Source of the DNA: Caulobacter sp. BP25
GTDB lineage: Bacteria > Pseudomonadota > Alphaproteobacteria > Caulobacterales > Caulobacteraceae
Reading direction: 5' to 3'
Assembly (NCBI RefSeq): GCF_002737755.1
Contig: NZ_PEGH01000008.1
Coordinates: 124,001 to 188,000 of the forward strand
DNA length: 64,000 nucleotides
A program made the position numbers and the translations under genes. Positions 1 through 44,277 of this stretch are shown piece by piece; positions within the stretch are counted from its first letter, which is position 1, and the number at the start of each line of letters is the position of its first letter. The notes under the pieces are model-generated. The model ran no database searches. It was given only the letters and a program-made list of their open reading frames with translations, and was not told the DNA's origin.

Positions 1-53
1 TCGCGGGCGCTTTCGTCGTCGTCGACCACATGCACGACGGGGGCGTCACTCAT
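1..53 (-). CDS. fixJ: FixJ response regulator, N-terminal fragment
   Basis: Only the first 17 codons are inside the window; the gene runs off the left edge. They read [17 protein letters not shown], which is a receiver-domain start with the beta-1 strand followed by the acidic DDD cluster. The ATG (51-53) lies inside the end of the upstream fixL-like gene and overlaps its TGA by 8 bases, so translational coupling is likely. FixJ is the DNA-binding partner phosphorylated by FixL in oxygen control. The name rests on this pairing because the effector domain is not visible. Confidence 0.85.
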
Positions 54-1545
54 TAACGGTCTCCTTGGCAGCGTCCGGCTGCTCTACGGGCGGTAGGGTG
101 AAACAGAAGCGGGCGCCGCCGGCCGGATTGGCCTCGGCCCAGATGCGGCCCCCGTGCGCCTCGATGATCGAGCGCGAGATCGACAGGCCCACCCCCATGC
201 CCTGCGGCTTGGTGGTCATGAACGGCTGGAATAGGCGCTCAAGCACCTCGGGGGCGATGCCTGGGCCGGTGTCGTCGACAATGACGCGCGACCAGCCGTC
301 CTCGGTCAGATCGCTGCTGATCAGCAGGGCGCGCTTCTTGGGGTCCTGCACCTGCATGGCGTCGATGCCGTTGCGGATCAGGTTCAGCAGCACCTGCTGC
401 ACCTGAACCCGGTCAGCGAACACCGCGTCGGCCTTGGGGTCGAGGTTCAGGCGCACGTCGACCTGGCGCTCCTTCTCGCCGATCAGAGCAAGAGCGCTGG
501 CCTCCTCGATCAGCTTGGACAGGCTCTCGGCCTCGCGCTGGCTGGCGCCGCGGCGGACGAAGTCGCGCATGCGGTGGATCACCTCGCCGGCCCGCAGGGC
601 CTGGGCGGCGGCGCGGTCGATGGCGTCGCGGATCTTGGCCTGGTCGGCCTCGCGGCCCCGGTCCATCAGGCGGCGCGAGCCGGTCAAGAGGTTGGCGATG
701 GCCGACAGCGGCTGGTTCAGCTCGTGGGCCAGGGTCGAGGCCATCTCGCCCATGGCCGTCAGGCGCGAGACGTGGACCAGTTCGTTCTGCAGCTCCTGCA
801 GGCGGGTCTCGGTCTCCTGGCTTTCCGTCAAATCACGGATGAAGCCGGTGAACGAGGGCGTCGGACCCTTGGTCTCGCCGACCGCCAGCTCCATCGGAAA
901 GGTCGAGCCGTCCTTGCGGCTGCCCACCACGACGCGGCCAGAGCCGATGATCCGCCGCTCGCCGGTGCGGCCGTAGCGCTCCAGATAGCCGTCGTGCTGG
1001 GCCTTGTAGGGCTCGGGCATCAAGAGGCTGACGTTCTTGCCCAGAACTTCGGCCTCCTTCCAGCCGAACATCCGCTCGGCGGCGGGGCTGAACGAGGTCA
1101 TCAGGCCCTGTCGGTCGATGACGACCACGGCGTCGGGCACGGTGTCGAGGATCGAGCGCAGGTGGTCGTTGACGGCGGCGGCGCGGCGGCGCGTGGCGTG
1201 GAACCAGCCGCCCCCGACCGCCATGCCAAAGCCCGTCGACAGGAAGACGCCCGCGCAGATGCCGCTGACCAGGTTGAACGGGATGTCGCGCGTCATCCAC
1301 CAGACTGCGGCCCAGGCCAGGGTGGTGGCGAAGACGCCCGGACCCACCCCGCCCAGGGCGGCGCTGATCAGCACCGCCGGCACGAACAGCAGAAAGGATG
1401 ACGGCGCGGTGAAGGCCTCGGGCAGGTACAGGCGCAGGACCGCCGTCGCCATCACGGACACCAGGGCCGTGACATAGGCGGTGGGGCGGGGGTCGCTGAA
1501 CAGGGGCGAGGGCAGGCCTCGGGCGGGCTTCATCCGCGCAAGCAC
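46..1545 (-). CDS. fixL: Oxygen-sensing histidine kinase FixL
   Basis: This 499-residue membrane-anchored kinase should autophosphorylate when oxygen is low and pass phosphate to FixJ. Hydrophobic segments fill about residues 22-115. A PAS domain follows (about 128-245), with the HDGYL sequence at H184 that holds the haem ligand in rhizobial FixL and a conserved IIGSGR stretch after it. The HisKA motif AHELNQPL puts the phosphorylated His at 274, and the C-terminus carries an HATPase with DTGPGIA and GVGLSIS boxes. Length and domain order fit FixL. It overlaps fixJ by 8 bases. A FixK-type box at 1624-1637 lies about 80 bases upstream, which could allow feedback control. Confidence 0.93.
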
Positions 1546-1623
1546 TCCGACGGAAACGCGGCCCTTATAGGCGACGCGGTTTGAGGCAGGTCAAGGCGGG
1601 GGAGCCTGGCCAAGCCCAACCTC

Positions 1624-1637
1624 TTGTCTTCGATCAA
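1624..1637. promoter_or_regulatory. FixK/FNR-type box between fixL and a micro-ORF
   Basis: The sequence TTGTC-TTCG-ATCAA matches the TTGAT-N4-ATCAA consensus with one half-site imperfect. If used as an activator site at about -41.5 it would place a minus-strand start near 1589, suiting fixL. For the plus-strand micro-ORF at 1650 it is too close and would more likely repress. A second, better box sits at 5224-5237. Confidence 0.55.
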
Positions 1638-1649
1638 GGGAGACACTCC

Positions 1650-1751
1650 ATGTCCGACGGACAAACGGCATATATCGGTCTGGTGATCGCGGCGTTCGCG
1701 GCCTTCGCCGTGGCGCTTTTCGCGACTCATATCCGGGTGAACCTGAAATAG
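1650..1751 (+). CDS. 33-residue single-pass membrane micro-protein
   Basis: ATG at 1650 and TAG at 1749-1751 give 33 residues beginning M-S-D-G-Q-T-A-Y and ending R-V-N-L-K. Residues about 8-27 form one Ala/Val/Phe/Leu-rich transmembrane helix with a basic C-terminal end. A Shine-Dalgarno AGGGAG lies 8 bases before the ATG and a strong intrinsic terminator follows at 1778-1807, so it looks like a complete small transcription unit. Its place between fixLJ and the cyd genes suggests a role in microaerobic respiration, for example as an oxidase accessory peptide, but that is inference. I do not recognise the family. Confidence 0.7.
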   Translation: MSDGQTAYIGLVIAAFAAFAVALFATHIRVNLK

Positions 1752-1760
1752 ACGTCGCGT

Positions 1761-3365
1761 TCAGGGCGTGACGACAAGGCCTGGCGGCGCGACCGCCGGG
1801 CCTTTTTCCTGCGCGGTCTCGTCCAGCCGCAGAATGCGGTCGCAAAGGCGGACGGGCGCGGGACGATGACTGATCAGCAAAAGGCCCTGGCCGGTGCGGG
1901 TCAGCCGCTGCTCAAGGCCCTCGATCACGCGGGCCTCTGTCGTCGGATCAAGGCCTTCGGTCGGCTCATCCAGAAGCAGCCAGGGCGCGGTGCGCAGATA
2001 GGCGCGAGCCAAGGCCAGGCGACGCCGCTCGCCGCCCGATAGCCGCTCGCCGTCGTCGCCGAGATAGGCCGACAAACCGCCCGGCGCGGCGCGCACGCGG
2101 TCGGCCAGGGCGGCGTCCTCCAGGACTTCCCACAGCGCCGCATCGCTGGCTTGCGGCGCGGCCAGACGCAGGTTCTCGCGCACCGTCCCGGCGATCAGGC
2201 CCGCGTCTTGAGGCAGCCAGGCGAAGGCGCCGCGAGGCGGCTGAGCGGCCTCGCCGCGCAGGCCCAGAAGCGTCTCGATCAGGGTGGTCTTGCCACAGCC
2301 GGACGGGCCGACGATCGCCAGGCGTTCTCCGGGCTGGAGGGTCTGGTCCAGCAGGGTCAGGGCGGGCGCTTCCACTAAGGGCGCGGAGGCTGGACGCGGC
2401 TGATGACGCAGCAGGGCGTTCAGGCGATCGCGCGCCTCGCGGGCGGCGCCGTCCTGGTCGAAGGCGTGGGCCAGGCCCGACAGCGCCTCGACGCTCATGG
2501 CGGCGGCCAGGGCCGAGAGCGCGGCCAGCGGCGCGCCGGTCGGGGCGGCGGCGGCCATGGCGGCGGCGACGGCCGCGCCAAGGATCGCCGCCTGGCTCGC
2601 CAGGACCAGGCCTTGAGCCCGCGCGGCGGCCAGGCGCGCGGCCTCCAGGTCGGCGGCGCGCTGGTTCAGGGTCTGGCCGGCCCAGTCTTCCAGGCCATAG
2701 GCGCGGAGTTCGGCGGCGGCCGAGACCAGGGCGGCGGCGCTGTCCTTCAGGGCGCCCACCTTGGTCTGGACGGCGATGCGGGCTGGGGCCGAGTAGCGGC
2801 GGGCCAGGGCGCGGGCTGACAGGATCGCCGCGCCGGCGGCGGTCAGGATCACCAGGCTGGGCGCCCAGCCGGCGAAGGCGGCCAGGAATAGGCCAGCGCC
2901 CAGGCCGGCGGCCGCGCTCCAGGGGGCCGACAGGCGCACGAAGCGGGTCTCGACGGCGTCGACGTCCTGCACCAGGCGGGCCGAGGCCTCGCCGCGCGAC
3001 AGAGCCAGCGACTCCGCCGGCGGGGCGGCGGCGAGGCTGGCGAAGACGGCCGGGCGGATCGCCGCTAGCGCCCGCAGAGCGGCGGCATGGCCGGCCAGCC
3101 GCTCGCCATAGCGCGATGCGGTGCGCAGAATGGCCAGCAGGCGGATCGCGGCGCCCGGCAGCAGCACGTTGAACGCGTGGGCGGCGGCCAGTCCCGCGGC
3201 GCCGGCCGCGGCGCTGGCGACAATGAACCAGCCCGACAGGCCCAGAAGCAGGGTCGAGGCCGCGCCGACCACGACGGCGCTCAAGATGGCCAGGCGCAGA
3301 TTGCCCGCGTGGACGCGCTTCTGGTCGCGGATCAGGGCGTCGACGGGGGAGGGCTGGGAGCTCAT
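1761..3365 (-). CDS. cydC: CydC, thiol-exporter ABC subunit for cytochrome bd assembly
   Basis: This is an ABC half-transporter with fused membrane and ATPase domains, 534 residues from the chosen ATG. CydDC exports glutathione or cysteine to the periplasm and is needed for bd oxidase assembly. Six hydrophobic segments come first. Walker A (GPSGCGKTT, near residue 360), signature LSGGERRRLALARA and Walker B LLLDEPTEGLD follow. The reading frame extends upstream to 3386, but the ATG at 3363-3365 (MSSQPSP) has a G-rich ribosome site and fits better. It lies downstream of cydD, separated by an inverted-repeat element. Confidence 0.9.
   Translation of the reverse strand: MSSQPSPVDALIRDQKRVHAGNLRLAILSAVVVGAASTLLLGLSGWFIVASAAAGAAGLAAAHAFNVLLPGAAIRLLAILRTASRYGERLAGHAAALRALAAIRPAVFASLAAAPPAESLALSRGEASARLVQDVDAVETRFVRLSAPWSAAAGLGAGLFLAAFAGWAPSLVILTAAGAAILSARALARRYSAPARIAVQTKVGALKDSAAALVSAAAELRAYGLEDWAGQTLNQRAADLEAARLAAARAQGLVLASQAAILGAAVAAAMAAAAPTGAPLAALSALAAAMSVEALSGLAHAFDQDGAAREARDRLNALLRHQPRPASAPLVEAPALTLLDQTLQPGERLAIVGPSGCGKTTLIETLLGLRGEAAQPPRGAFAWLPQDAGLIAGTVRENLRLAAPQASDAALWEVLEDAALADRVRAAPGGLSAYLGDDGERLSGGERRRLALARAYLRTAPWLLLDEPTEGLDPTTEARVIEGLEQRLTRTGQGLLLISHRPAPVRLCDRILRLDETAQEKGPAVAPPGLVVTP
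1778..1807 (+). terminator. Intrinsic terminator of the micro-ORF, inside the cydC 3' end
   Basis: A 10-bp stem (GGCCTGGCGG with CCGCCGGGCC, one G-T wobble) has a 5-base loop and is followed by five T on the plus strand. It lies within the last codons of the convergent cydC gene, so the same bases encode the CydC C-terminus and stop plus-strand transcription. Confidence 0.75.
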
Positions 3366-3387
3366 TGCGCTTGACCCCCAACCCATG

Positions 3388-3520
3388 CCGTCATTCCCGC
3401 CCTTGTGGCGGGAACCCCTGGTTCAGCCCGCATTTGCGGCGCAAGCGGACCGCCAGCGGTCCGCCCCATCTTCACTTGCGGCGGATAGAGGGGTTCCCGC
3501 CACAAGGGCGGGAATGACGG
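3388..3520. repeat. Intergenic palindromic element, family A (copy 1)
   Basis: A 32-base arm (3388-3419, containing ATTCCCGCCCTTGTGGCGGG) has its exact reverse complement at 3489-3520. The 69-base spacer has a smaller inverted repeat, GCGGACCGC with GCGGTCCGC. The element fills the cydD-cydC gap and would form a long hairpin in the shared transcript. A diverged copy lies near 19463-19595. Confidence 0.85.
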
Positions 3521-3549
3521 GTGCTTTTTAGGTGCGAGCCGAGCCAACC

Positions 3550-5211
3550 TCACAACCGCACCACCTTGTCCGCCAGGGCCGCAACGGCCTCGGAGTGGGT
3601 GGCGATCAGGGTCGTGCGGCTCTGGGCGGCGCGGCGCAGGGCCGTCAGCATCTGGGTCTCGGCCACGGCGTCGAGATTGGCGGTCGGCTCGTCCAGCAGC
3701 AGGATCGGCGCGGGCTTCAGGAGGGCGCGGGCCAGGGACAGGCGTCGACGCTCGCCGCCGGAGAGGCCGCTGCCGCGCTCGTCGAGCACGAAGTCCAGGC
3801 CGCCGGGGCGATGGGCGAGGGCCGCTTCGAGACCCGCGTCGCGGGCGGCCGCCTCGATCTCGGCGCGGGGAGCGTCACGGCGCGACAGGGCGATGTTGTC
3901 GGCGATCGAGGCCGGCAGGATCAGCGGTGACTGGCCCGCCCAGGCGATATCGGCCGCCGTGACCGGACGCTCGGCGCCGTCGATCAGGATTCGTCCCTCG
4001 GTAAGCGGAGAAAGGCCCAGCAAGAGGTTCAGGATCGAGCTCTTGCCCGCGCCGCTGGCCCCGACCAGGGCCACCATCGCGCCAGCCGGGATGTCGAGAT
4101 CAAAGCCCGCCACGGCTGGAGTGTCGGCCTCGGGATAGCGCACCGTGACGCCCTCGAAGCGGATCGCCGGGGCGGCGGGCAGCGGCGCGACGGTCGGCGC
4201 GGGGGCGGGCTCCTCGAAGGTGCAAAGGCGCGCGGCGGCGGCCTCGGCGGCCTGGCGGTCGTGATAGGCGGCGGCCAGGCGGCGCATGGGCGCGTAAACC
4301 TCGGGCGCCAGGGCCAGGACGAAGAAGGCGCGCTTCAGGTCCAGCTGTTCGGGGACCGGGAAGGGCAGCAGGCGCAGCAGGTTGAAGCCGCAATAGACCG
4401 CCACCAGCGCCACCGAGAGAGCGGCGAAGAACTCCAGCGCCGCCGATGACACGAACGCCACCCGCAGCACCTTAAGGGTTCGTTCGGCGAGCGCCGAGGC
4501 CGAGCGGCCGAGCGCGGCCGTGGTCGTCCCCTCGGCCTCGAAGGCCAGCACCACGGGCAGGGCGCGGACGCGGTCGAGGAACAGACCCGAAAGTCGTTCA
4601 AGGGCTTGGAACTGGGCGCGGGATTCGGCCGCCGCGGCGGTCCCGGCCAGGATCATCGCGGCGATGAACGGGATCAGGGTGGCCAGCATGATCGCCGCGC
4701 AGATCGGGCTGGCGATCGCCGCGGCGGCGATCATCAACAGCGGCAGAACAGCCGCCGACAGGCGCGTGGGCAGGAAGCGGGCGAAATAGCCGTCCATGGC
4801 CTCGACGCCCTCGACCAGGGCGGTGGTCGCCTCGCCGGCCGGGCGCCGGGGACCGCCGAACACGGCCCGCGCCAGCTCGGCGCGCAGGTTCACCTTGGCG
4901 CCGGCGGCCGCCTCGGCGCCCATCCGGGCGCTGGCGTAGGCGAGCAGCGCGCGCAGCAGCATGGCGGCCAGGACGCCGGCCAGGCAGAGCGAAAAGATCC
5001 AAGGTTCCCGTCGGTTGGCGATGGCGTCGGCCCCAAAGGCCAGCCCGGCCGCGAAGCCGATCGCGGCCAGGCCGTCCAGCAGCCCGACGGCTTGAGCGCG
5101 CCGCACGACGGGTCCCGCGACGCGGTCGCGCCGTTTCAACCAGGCCTTGGAATCGAGGGGGTGGACAATCTGCGCTATGCGGGAACCCATCGCTTGAGTG
5201 TAGGCTGACAC
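3550..5211 (-). CDS. cydD: CydD, thiol-exporter ABC subunit for cytochrome bd assembly
   Basis: This 553-residue ABC half-transporter is the CydC partner. An N-terminal membrane domain (about residues 40-300) precedes an ATPase with Walker A GASGAGKSS near residue 385, signature LSGGERRRLSLARA and Walker B LLLDEPTANLD. The GTG start at 5211 has an AAGGA ribosome site 9 bases away; an internal ATG at 5190 is the alternative. It is divergent from cydABX and shares the intergenic FixK-type box, so both the oxidase and its assembly exporter are likely induced when oxygen falls. Confidence 0.9.
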   Translation of the reverse strand: MSAYTQAMGSRIAQIVHPLDSKAWLKRRDRVAGPVVRRAQAVGLLDGLAAIGFAAGLAFGADAIANRREPWIFSLCLAGVLAAMLLRALLAYASARMGAEAAAGAKVNLRAELARAVFGGPRRPAGEATTALVEGVEAMDGYFARFLPTRLSAAVLPLLMIAAAAIASPICAAIMLATLIPFIAAMILAGTAAAAESRAQFQALERLSGLFLDRVRALPVVLAFEAEGTTTAALGRSASALAERTLKVLRVAFVSSAALEFFAALSVALVAVYCGFNLLRLLPFPVPEQLDLKRAFFVLALAPEVYAPMRRLAAAYHDRQAAEAAAARLCTFEEPAPAPTVAPLPAAPAIRFEGVTVRYPEADTPAVAGFDLDIPAGAMVALVGASGAGKSSILNLLLGLSPLTEGRILIDGAERPVTAADIAWAGQSPLILPASIADNIALSRRDAPRAEIEAAARDAGLEAALAHRPGGLDFVLDERGSGLSGGERRRLSLARALLKPAPILLLDEPTANLDAVAETQMLTALRRAAQSRTTLIATHSEAVAALADKVVRL

Positions 5212-5223
5212 CGGTCGCTATCC

Positions 5224-5237
5224 TTGACCGTGATCAA
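5224..5237. promoter_or_regulatory. FixK/FNR box between cydD and cydA
   Basis: TTGAC-CGTG-ATCAA is a near-perfect TTGAY-N4-RTCAA site. Its centre is about 83 bases before the cydA ATG, so an activator at -41.5 would give a transcript start near 5272 and a ~42-base leader. For cydD the site is immediately upstream of the start codon. Confidence 0.75.
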
Positions 5238-5313: not shown

Positions 5314-6876
5314 ATGGACCCCGCGGTTATAGACCTATCGCGATTGCAGTTCGCGCTTACGGCTCTTTACCACTTTTTGTTCGTGCCCCTGACGCTGGGG
5401 CTCTCCTTCATGCTGGTCATCATGGAGAGCATCTACGTCATGACCAAGCGCCCGATCTGGCGCACCATCACGCGGTTCTGGGGGACCCTGTTTGGCATCA
5501 ATTTCGTGCTGGGCGTGGCGACCGGGATCACGATGGAATTCCAGTTCGGCATGAACTGGTCCTACTACTCGCACTATGTCGGCGACATCTTCGGCGCGCC
5601 CCTGGCGATCGAGGGCCTGATGGCCTTCTTCCTTGAAGCCACGTTCGTCGGTCTGATGTTCTTCGGCTGGGACAAGCTGTCTCGCGTGGGGCACCTGTTC
5701 GTCACCTTCATGGTGGCGCTGGGCACCAACCTGTCGGCCCTGTGGATTCTGGTCGCCAACGGCTGGATGCAGAACCCGATCGGCGCGGTCTTCAATCCCG
5801 ACACCATGCGGATGGAGGTCTCCAACTTCCGGGACGTGATCTTCAACCCAGTGGCCCAGGCCAAGTTCGTCCACACCGTCAGCGCCGGCTATGTGATCGC
5901 CGCCGTGTTCGTGCTGGGGGTCTCGGCCTGGTACCTGCTGAAGGGCAAGCATGTGGGCGTGGCCAAGCGGTCGATGACCGTCGCGGCCGCCTTTGGTCTG
6001 GCCTCGTCGCTGTCGGTGGTCGTGCTTGGCGACGAGAGCGGCTACGCCCTGACCGACAACCAAAAAATGAAACTCGCGGCGCTGGAGGCCATGTGGGAGA
6101 CGGAAGCCGCGCCGGCCGGCCTGACGGCCTTCGGCATTCCCAGCATGGCCGACCGCACGACCCACCACGAGGTCAAGATTCCCTACGTGCTGGGCCTGAT
6201 CGCCACCCGCAGCTTCGACAAGCCGGTCGAGGGCATCTTCCAGCTGGTCGCCAAGGCTCAGGATCGCATCGAGTCCGGCGTTGTCGCCTATGGCGCGGTC
6301 GAGACGCTGAAGGTCAATCCCAACGACCTGGCCGCCCGCGCGACCTTCGAGCAGCACCGCCGCGACCTGGGCTACGCCCTGCTGCTCAAGCGCTATGTCG
6401 CCGATCCGCGTCAGGCCTCGCCCGAGCTGATCCAGAAGGCGGCGTGGGACACCGTGCCGCCGGTGCCGGTGATGTTCTGGGCGTTCCGGATCATGGCCGG
6501 GATCGGCTTCCTGATGATCGCCCTGTTCGCCACGGCCTTCATCCTGGTCACCCTGCGCAAGCATGACACCAAGTGGTTCCTGGTCCTGGCCATAGCGGCC
6601 ATCCCGCTGCCCTGGCTGTCGGCGGAGCTGGGCTGGGTTCTGGCCGAGGTCGGCCGCCAGCCCTGGGCCGTGGAGGGCGTACTGCCCACCTTCCTGGGCG
6701 CGTCCAGCCTGACTGTCCCGCAGCTGCTGATCAGCATCGCGGCCTTCACCCTGTTGTATGGCGCCCTGGCGGTGGTCGAGGTCGGCCTGATCCTCAAGAC
6801 CATCAAGAAGGGGCCTTTCGCCCAGCACGAACCGGCGCTCGACGATTCCGTCGAAGCCGAACCGGCCGTGGCCTAA
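5314..6876 (+). CDS. cydA: Cytochrome bd ubiquinol oxidase subunit I
   Basis: CydA (520 residues) is the haem-carrying, quinol-oxidising subunit of the bd oxidase, which reduces O2 with high affinity at the inner membrane. The haem ligands of the E. coli protein (H19, H186, M393) correspond to H20 in ALYHFLF, H187 in KFVHTVSAG and M394 in FRIMAG. The GWxLAEVGRQPW motif is present. A long region between them, including the stretch HRRDLGYALLLKRY, indicates the long Q-loop type. cydB starts 14 bases downstream, followed by cydX. Confidence 0.97.
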   Translation: MDPAVIDLSRLQFALTALYHFLFVPLTLGLSFMLVIMESIYVMTKRPIWRTITRFWGTLFGINFVLGVATGITMEFQFGMNWSYYSHYVGDIFGAPLAIEGLMAFFLEATFVGLMFFGWDKLSRVGHLFVTFMVALGTNLSALWILVANGWMQNPIGAVFNPDTMRMEVSNFRDVIFNPVAQAKFVHTVSAGYVIAAVFVLGVSAWYLLKGKHVGVAKRSMTVAAAFGLASSLSVVVLGDESGYALTDNQKMKLAALEAMWETEAAPAGLTAFGIPSMADRTTHHEVKIPYVLGLIATRSFDKPVEGIFQLVAKAQDRIESGVVAYGAVETLKVNPNDLAARATFEQHRRDLGYALLLKRYVADPRQASPELIQKAAWDTVPPVPVMFWAFRIMAGIGFLMIALFATAFILVTLRKHDTKWFLVLAIAAIPLPWLSAELGWVLAEVGRQPWAVEGVLPTFLGASSLTVPQLLISIAAFTLLYGALAVVEVGLILKTIKKGPFAQHEPALDDSVEAEPAVA

Positions 6877-8060: not shown

Positions 8061-8180
8061 ATGTGGTATTTCACCTGGATCCTGGGCCTGGGCCTGGCCG
8101 TCGCCTTCGGCGTGCTGAATGGCGTCTGGTACGAATTCAACCTGGCCGACGACGGCGACGAGGGGCTGTCGGAGCCTTAG
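8061..8180 (+). CDS. cydX: CydX small subunit of cytochrome bd oxidase
   Basis: A 39-residue single-helix protein starts 18 bases after cydB with an AAGGAAA ribosome site. The N-terminus M-W-Y-F-T-W-I-L-G-L-G-L-A is the CydX/YbgT signature, followed by VLNGVWYE and an acidic tail. In E. coli CydX stabilises the haem b558/b595 site. Its position completes the cydABX operon. Confidence 0.92.
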   Translation: MWYFTWILGLGLAVAFGVLNGVWYEFNLADDGDEGLSEP

Positions 8181-44037: not shown

Positions 44038-44277
44038 TTAATATAGAGCTGGATGTCGCTGTTGATGTGTTTCAAAATGAAACATTGATTATGTAAAATA
44101 CCTATCTGTTCTAGGTAAATTCGATGTTCATGATTAATAAAATAGTGCAATAATTTAATTGAATATCTATCCGTTCTAAACGAAATAGAAATGACACATT
44201 CGGATACTGTTCGAGGGTAAAACGCCCACCGGTCGTCAAAAGGACACCGGGACACCTCGAATAGGAGTTGTTTCGTT
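44038..44277. promoter_or_regulatory. AT-rich flagellin upstream region
   Basis: 240 bases, strongly AT-rich compared with flanking DNA. Two copies of a TATCyGTTCTA motif (near 44104 and 44167) are 63 bases apart. I found no convincing sigma54 -24/-12 element. The last 60 bases are GC-normal and hold TAGGAG, the ribosome site, 10 bases before the flagellin ATG. Confidence 0.4.

Follow-up and report, generated by a model that had tools for sequence, protein, structure and literature searches.

Several small respiratory subunits and one low-oxygen regulon resemble the gene described here. CydX/YbgT proteins comprise about 30-40 residues with one helix and belong to a respiratory context. CydH/CydY (YnhF) of E. 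coli cytochrome bd-I sits in the cleft formed by helices 1 and 9 of CydA. It is likewise a one-helix subunit, encoded by an orphan gene outside the cyd operon, and the available text of PMC8951039 states that its homologues occur together with bd oxidases of the L-subfamily. CcoM of the Pseudomonas stutzeri cbb3 oxidase is a 36-residue subunit that is important in low oxygen (available text of PMC10433244). In low oxygen, FixLJ raises FixK, as is established (PMC7078487), and reconstructions of the FixK/FnrN regulon of Alphaproteobacteria match our locus in operator type, spacing and target theme (PMC4999443, PMC2908626). No such microprotein is named in the available text of these two reconstructions; however, the core regulons that PMC2908626 predicts for FixK and FNR include four hypothetical proteins left unidentified, one of which could be the gene reported here. 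The family was also not found in the open-licence literature, which is a weak negative.

We analyzed a 64,000-nucleotide stretch of DNA from Caulobacter sp. BP25 (hereafter, the window), in which a 33-residue reading frame lies between fixL and cydC. Our main reading is that this frame is a self-contained, FixK-activated gene encoding a one-helix accessory protein of a shared respiratory complex rather than of cytochrome bd or cbb3 alone; we give this statement as a whole, with its inferred partner, a probability of about 0.5. The part of it that concerns a translated, FixK-activated gene holds in all likelihood. In contrast with CydX, which follows cydB in this window, the micro-gene stands alone with its own FixK box. 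While CydH/CydY homologues coincide with L-subfamily bd, 14 of the 26 genomes that carry the micro-gene family lack cydA, and a search with a 33-column family profile matched no PDB chain at E≤10 in a set whose inclusion of the bd-I chain was unchecked. The micro-gene likewise differs from CcoM in that 8 of the 26 carriers lack ccoN and no PDB match is found at this threshold. In its way of working, the micro-protein would come closest to CydH/CydY and CcoM, although the tests made place it in neither of these families; its own family is a new one of a known kind, the small respiratory subunits.

The micro-gene between fixL and cydC

The genes surrounding the micro-ORF, the elements of its transcription unit and the neighboring cyd operons are as follows.

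46-1533, minus strand: fixL, PAS histidine kinase (best NCBIfam model FixL, below cut-off)
1637-1642, plus strand: Shine-Dalgarno sequence AGGGAG of the micro-ORF, 7 nt 5' of the ATG
1650-1751, plus strand: micro-ORF, single-TM microprotein gene, MSDGQTAYIGLVIAAFAAFAVALFATHIRVNLK (open reading frame, homologues, purifying selection, one helix)
1761-3386, minus strand: cydC (best family CydC, below the family cut-off)
1778-1807, plus strand: intrinsic terminator inside the last codons of cydC (10-bp stem followed by TTTTT, -21.3 kcal/mol)
3550-5211, minus strand: cydD (CydD over cut-off)
5224-5237, no strand: FixK box TTGACCGTGATCAA between cydD and cydA (strict match)
5314-6876, plus strand: cydA (PF01654, 1.7e-170)
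8061-8180, plus strand: canonical CydX, the bd small subunit, separate from the micro-gene (PF08173, 1e-14; TIGR02106, 2.2e-14)

By eye, fixJ, fixT and fixK lie at and beyond the left edge of the window, and cydB lies on the plus strand between cydA and cydX. Since CydX at 8061-8180 follows cydB, the micro-ORF is not needed to supply the standard small subunit of bd. The micro-protein itself was rejected as a CydX: neither it nor any of 45 members of its family matched PF08173 or TIGR02106 at E≤1. In the cydD/cydC gap (3380-3540), there is, judging by eye, an apparent long inverted repeat (TCATTCCCGCC...GGCGGGAATGA), and similar letters are found 5' of the micro-gene in three other loci (L010, L012 and L013).

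The initial annotation of this DNA had placed an open reading frame with a ribosome site and one transmembrane helix between fixL and cydC, and all of these elements were borne out. The frame runs from an ATG to a TAG and encodes 33 residues, preceded by AGGGAG. Its product has a single hydrophobic stretch (residues 7-25, maximum Kyte-Doolittle value 2.43), and an AlphaFold2 model built from the single sequence consists of one helix spanning residues 3-32 with a mean pLDDT of 92; by these predictions, the micro-protein has the one membrane helix that defines single-TM respiratory accessory proteins.

In an alignment of 10 close-clade sequences, the window included, the in-frame pN/pS of the micro-ORF was 0.37, compared with 0.66-1.45 for the other five frames, each of which is interrupted by a stop somewhere in the alignment (in 9, 1, 1, 10 and 5 of the 10 sequences, respectively). 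Variable columns at codon positions 1, 2 and 3 numbered 15, 11 and 24, of 33 columns each. Because the frame is conserved under purifying selection and has homologues in other genomes, the micro-ORF is real beyond chance, and 1650-1751 is very probably a real gene. Loss of the frame in close relatives had been named at the outset as grounds for abandoning the gene; the frame is kept. Ribosome profiling of Caulobacter in mid-log PYE and M2G cultures recorded 94 CDSs shorter than 50 residues, according to the available text of PMC4117421.

The terminator that had been noted within the 3' end of cydC was also confirmed. A consensus terminator scan of 1400-2000 returned one site, a shorter form of the same stem, against 0.4 in shuffles, which is not above chance alone. 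By a rule-based criterion, a hairpin terminator occurs within 150 nt in 14 of the 64 located members of the family compared with 3 of 256 random places, and six of these 14 belong to the 10-sequence close clade. The terminated unit therefore holds for the window and some of its close clade, and most family members have no recognizable terminator. A search of 1400-2100 against Rfam gave nothing at E≤1.

A conserved FixK/FNR box and the predicted promoter

The following elements lie between fixL and the micro-ORF.

1564-1569, minus strand: possible fixL -10 element, TATAAG (constant spacing to the FixK/FNR box in 9/10 sequences; function inferred)
1581-1594, no strand: FixK/FNR box TTGAGGCAGGTCAA, conserved operator of the micro-gene, common to the fixL promoter region (centre 1587.5, 62 nt 5' of the ATG)
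1617-1622, plus strand: predicted -10 element CAACCT of the micro-gene (A-11 at 1618, T-7 at 1622; putative class II spacing)
1624-1637, no strand: box of the initial annotation, TTGTCTTCGATCAA (imperfect, deviating in its left half, overlapping the predicted start)

Three strict TTGA-N6-TCAA matches occur in the window (at 1581, 5224 and 44062), compared with 0.26 expected, and the first of them, at 1581-1594, stands upstream of the micro-gene, as the operator of a FixK/FnrN target does. The box at 5224-5237 lies between the divergent cydD and cydA, a position that could serve both operons, while the match at 44062-44075 (TTGATGTGTTTCAA) may be due to chance.

Across the family, a strict box was found at -50 to -75 from the start codon (median 62) in 47 of the 64 located members, a set of our own choosing that includes many close relatives and whose entries are not independent; the expectation is 0.0039 per locus, based on the density of strict boxes on both strands of the long loci fetched (1.08 Mb). 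Freeing the outermost base of each half raised the count to 51/64. Strict boxes were present in 17/24 members from other orders and in four of the six members absent from the build of the second profile described below, the other two showing a near match (L155) and one half site (L162). Three of the 17 members with no strict box at this distance have one at -79 to -81. A member found later (L179) has no strict box within 150 nt, making the count 47/65 when it is included, and contig edges kept 2 of the 66 members on the list out of this count; both carry the box. The link to low-oxygen control that had been suggested for the micro-gene is thus supported by an operator that recurs through most of its family.

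When the 47 members were aligned on their boxes, the strongest columns outside the box and its immediate GGCG-like flank were an A at +30.5 from the box centre (35/47) and a T at +34.5 (40/47). If the box is placed at -41.5, a putative class II placement, these two columns would fall on positions -11 (A) and -7 (T) of a -10 hexamer. In the window, the hexamer would be CAACCT, and the transcription start is predicted at 1629 with a 21-nt leader. A consensus promoter scan of both strands of 1400-2000 listed no promoter-like site, CAACCT included. Most mapped operons of Sphingopyxis granuli have their Fnr box centred at -41.5 or close to it (available text of PMC7713065). Because the A(-11)/T(-7) pair stands at putative class II spacing, FixK would be likelier to activate the micro-gene than to repress it.

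The initial annotation had instead taken TTGTCTTCGATCAA, just upstream of the ATG, as the FixK box and had reasoned that its position was too close for normal activation, so that repression of the micro-ORF came into question. This candidate was rejected as an operator: it is not a TTGA-N6-TCAA match, it is present in 3/10 aligned close sequences (window included) and it straddles the predicted start, so TTGTCTTCGATCAA is probably not an operator. Since the conserved box is the one at 1581-1594, at an ordinary activating distance and with putative class II activator geometry, the argument from proximity falls, and repression of the micro-ORF rested on the wrong site.

The same box faces fixL on its other side. 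The TATAAG at 1569-1564 would put the fixL start near 1557 and the box near -30, on the -35 region. Because of this overlap with the -35 region of the TATAAG promoter, repression of fixL by FixK would be the better fit, and the alignment suggests that the box may damp fixL rather than raise it. Activation of fixL, which had also been considered, is therefore doubtful. FixK control of fixLJ or fixJ has been predicted in C. crescentus, C. segnis and strain K31 in a 2016 reconstruction (available text of PMC4999443), and the FixK site credited to fixLJ there may be box 1581-1594 seen from the other side.

An unnamed family and its genomic settings

With the window protein as query, 7 other same-genus genomes of 61 searched matched at E<1e-5, and the window's own genome held a single copy at E≤10. 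A DNA pattern spanning the box and the C-terminus retrieved 7 records, including Caulobacter vibrioides DSM 9893, OR37 and Caulobacter sp. 602-1. Two profiles were then used: A1 (17 rows) was run on two samples, 249 genomes from the order and 289 from the class, while A2 (45 rows, 33 columns) was run on the same 289-genome class sample. A carrier was defined by an A2 match at E<5e-4 whose motif has a start codon in place, a rule that marked 26 of the 289 class genomes, spanning 21 genera; presence calls with a 33-column profile are incomplete. One further match at this threshold, which sits in a 336-residue frame of genome G460, was dropped. At E≤1 or 0.5, A1 and A2 gave matches in 144/249, 111/289 and 111/289 genomes, but these were mostly weak, many lay in long frames, and the bulk of them are probably due to chance.

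Rows were also dropped from the same-genus search (L016, L019-L021, L023, L024 and L026-L030; long frames or unlike motif), from a further set of loci (L091, L093, L098, L099, L102 and L103; long frames, no start or unlike motif) and from the class-level A2 set (L166, with no start nearby, and L168-L170). The six rows of this further set (L091 to L103) were judged after the box result was visible, and all of them lack the box. Outside the member set stand L100, L101, L104 and L105, together with ten further A1 matches at E<0.01 that have no locus, and L151 (G399), whose protein is identical to that of G502 in A2, was excluded from the count of new members.

Measured from the chosen start, 62 of the 64 located members are 29-62 residues long, the other two having 67 and 116. 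Their majority pattern is Y-L-x-x-V-x-x-A-F-x-x-F-A-x-x-L, in which F19 is invariant. Pfam and NCBIfam searches of the 45 A2 members returned no family, with each entry listed matching one or two of the 45 and a best E-value of 0.0031, and the A2 profile, whose 33 columns have limited reach, matched no PDB chain at E≤10. A phylum sample of 249 genomes, whose non-class share is not shown, gave three matches at E≤0.01, all within the class, and one family member used as a query against plasmid records gave no match. Judged from these searches, the micro-protein belongs to an unnamed one-helix family in Alphaproteobacteria with no convincing match in Pfam, NCBIfam or the PDB.

Lysine and arginine residues are more numerous on the C-terminal than on the N-terminal side in 62 of the 64 members and equal in two, a charge distribution that suggests an N-out, C-in topology. 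For residues 6-25, the conservation moment has its maximum at 99 degrees per residue; its value at 100 degrees was reached by none of 20000 shuffles. One conserved helix face therefore fits a helix packed on a partner, and this pattern suggests docking.

We fetched 54 loci at length and called neighbors within 6 kb by BLAST thresholds of our own choosing. The initial annotation had proposed looking for homologues beside fixLJ or cyd in related genomes. In the window's own taxonomic family, the Caulobacteraceae, 23/35 long loci have fix, cyd or cco genes within 6 kb, the settings being fixL-cydC, cydC beside an OmpW-like gene (by eye), fixKLJ, ccoNOQP or none of these. Only 2/19 long loci from other families lie near such oxygen-response genes, and the neighbors therefore do not name the partner. 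In two loci (L036, 4493-5119; L037, 4503-5189), an extra ORF that is membrane-like by eye lies between the micro-gene and cydC, so that the micro-gene can stand apart from the end of cydC. In two loci of one other family (L106, 3742-4305; L121, 3633-4256), the micro-gene adjoins an Hsp20-like gene (by eye), and Hsp20 is an entry of the predicted FixK core regulon in the available text of PMC2908626. The micro-gene moves about alone, mostly keeping its FixK/FNR switch.

Candidate partners of the micro-protein

Using Fisher tests that ignore relatedness, ccoN was enriched among carriers (18/26 compared with 100/263 other class genomes, p 0.003), while cydA was not clearly so (12/26 compared with 99/263, p 0.41). 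Six of the eight carriers without ccoN are at least 97% complete. Five carriers (G403, G356, G290, G490 and G308) lack both cydA and ccoN; G290 is only 77% complete, and the other four are near-complete. Each of the five has exactly one heme-copper oxidase subunit I, with scores in the top-match range, and judging from the score level this single oxidase is probably of the aa3 type. Strict boxes accompany the micro-gene in G490 and G308 and a near match in G290, while none was found in G403 or G356. Since these five carriers have neither bd nor cbb3 and one heme-copper oxidase each, the micro-protein cannot be, family-wide, a subunit on which bd or cbb3 depends as an obligate partner, and this candidate was ruled out. 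The initial proposal of a new small subunit of bd or cbb3 is accordingly unsupported as an obligate role.

We therefore favor an accessory of a more widely shared complex, which could act as follows. At low oxygen, FixK would bind the conserved box at 1581-1594 and induce a short transcript beginning near 1629 and predicted to end at the 1778-1807 terminator. The microprotein would insert into the inner membrane with its short acidic or neutral N-terminus outside and its basic C-terminus inside, as its charges suggest, and the conserved face around Y8, I9, V12, F16, F19 and L23, with Q5 at its head, would dock on a partner membrane protein. The partner would most likely be a widely shared respiratory complex, such as aa3-type cytochrome c oxidase, bc1 or their supercomplex. 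A heme-copper oxidase subunit I is present in 26/26 carriers, but this count covers carriers alone and is little evidence for a shared-oxidase partner. Most aerobes have such a shared oxidase, so the clue is weak.

The enrichment of ccoN would be just as compatible with a role tied to cbb3 in the majority of lineages, with the micro-protein acting as an accessory helix of cbb3 oxidase in the manner of CcoM, and ccoN lies no more than 6 kb from the micro-gene in six loci (L045, L046, L047, L127, L130 and L135). However, the eight carriers without ccoN, most of them near-complete genomes, speak against it, no PDB chain was matched at E≤10, and FNR/FixK control and cbb3 co-occur anyway, so that the enrichment may be indirect. 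On balance, we consider a cbb3 accessory unlikely.

A small subunit of cytochrome bd, whether CydH-like or a second CydX-like helix, would explain why the micro-gene stands between fixLJ and cydDC in the window and its close relatives, and beside cydDC or cydA in L044, L048, L049, L124 and L137; the orphan one-helix CydH/CydY of E. coli bd-I offers a precedent (PMC8951039). This placement has to be set against the 14/26 carriers without cydA, the canonical CydX already encoded at 8061-8180 and the missing match to CydX models or, at E≤10, to any PDB chain, which together make a bd subunit quite unlikely.

A conserved face on the helix is also what one would expect if the micro-protein regulated another low-oxygen membrane protein, such as FixL or a transporter. 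Tuning of transporters or kinases is the role of several known bacterial microproteins, and fixL or fixJ lies close by in many loci of the window's taxonomic family; however, with fix, cyd and cco genes all missing from the 6-kb surroundings of 17/19 long loci from other families, the link to FixL is not general, and we give a regulatory role little credence. Finally, a FixK-induced small RNA with the peptide as a secondary product would suit the window, where the unit is short and ends in a hairpin terminator of its own, and the empty Rfam search is compatible with a new RNA, but the in-frame purifying selection, the residue pattern kept across the class, the conserved helix face and the opposite strand of the next gene 3', cydC, for which the unit is therefore no leader, render this highly improbable.

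Returning to the shared-complex accessory, its furthest extension is that a widespread, unnamed family controlled by FNR/FixK reshapes the main respiratory chain when oxygen is low, acting on aa3, bc1 or their supercomplex, also in genomes where no high-affinity oxidase is found, and that one Caulobacter FixK box switches the micro-gene on while damping fixL; we put this forward tentatively, as an idea that is unlikely to be right. The family would then be to these bacteria what hypoxia-induced small subunits are to mitochondria. For Caulobacter, the feedback loop would need to be reread, in that the FixK site assigned to fixLJ is arranged like an activator site relative to the micro-gene and could be part of the core promoter of fixL. 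Genes of about 29-62 residues are easily missed by annotation, and if this one is made into protein and has a part in respiration, its family, spread over 21 genera of the class sample, would provide a new handle on how the respiratory chain is tuned as oxygen falls.
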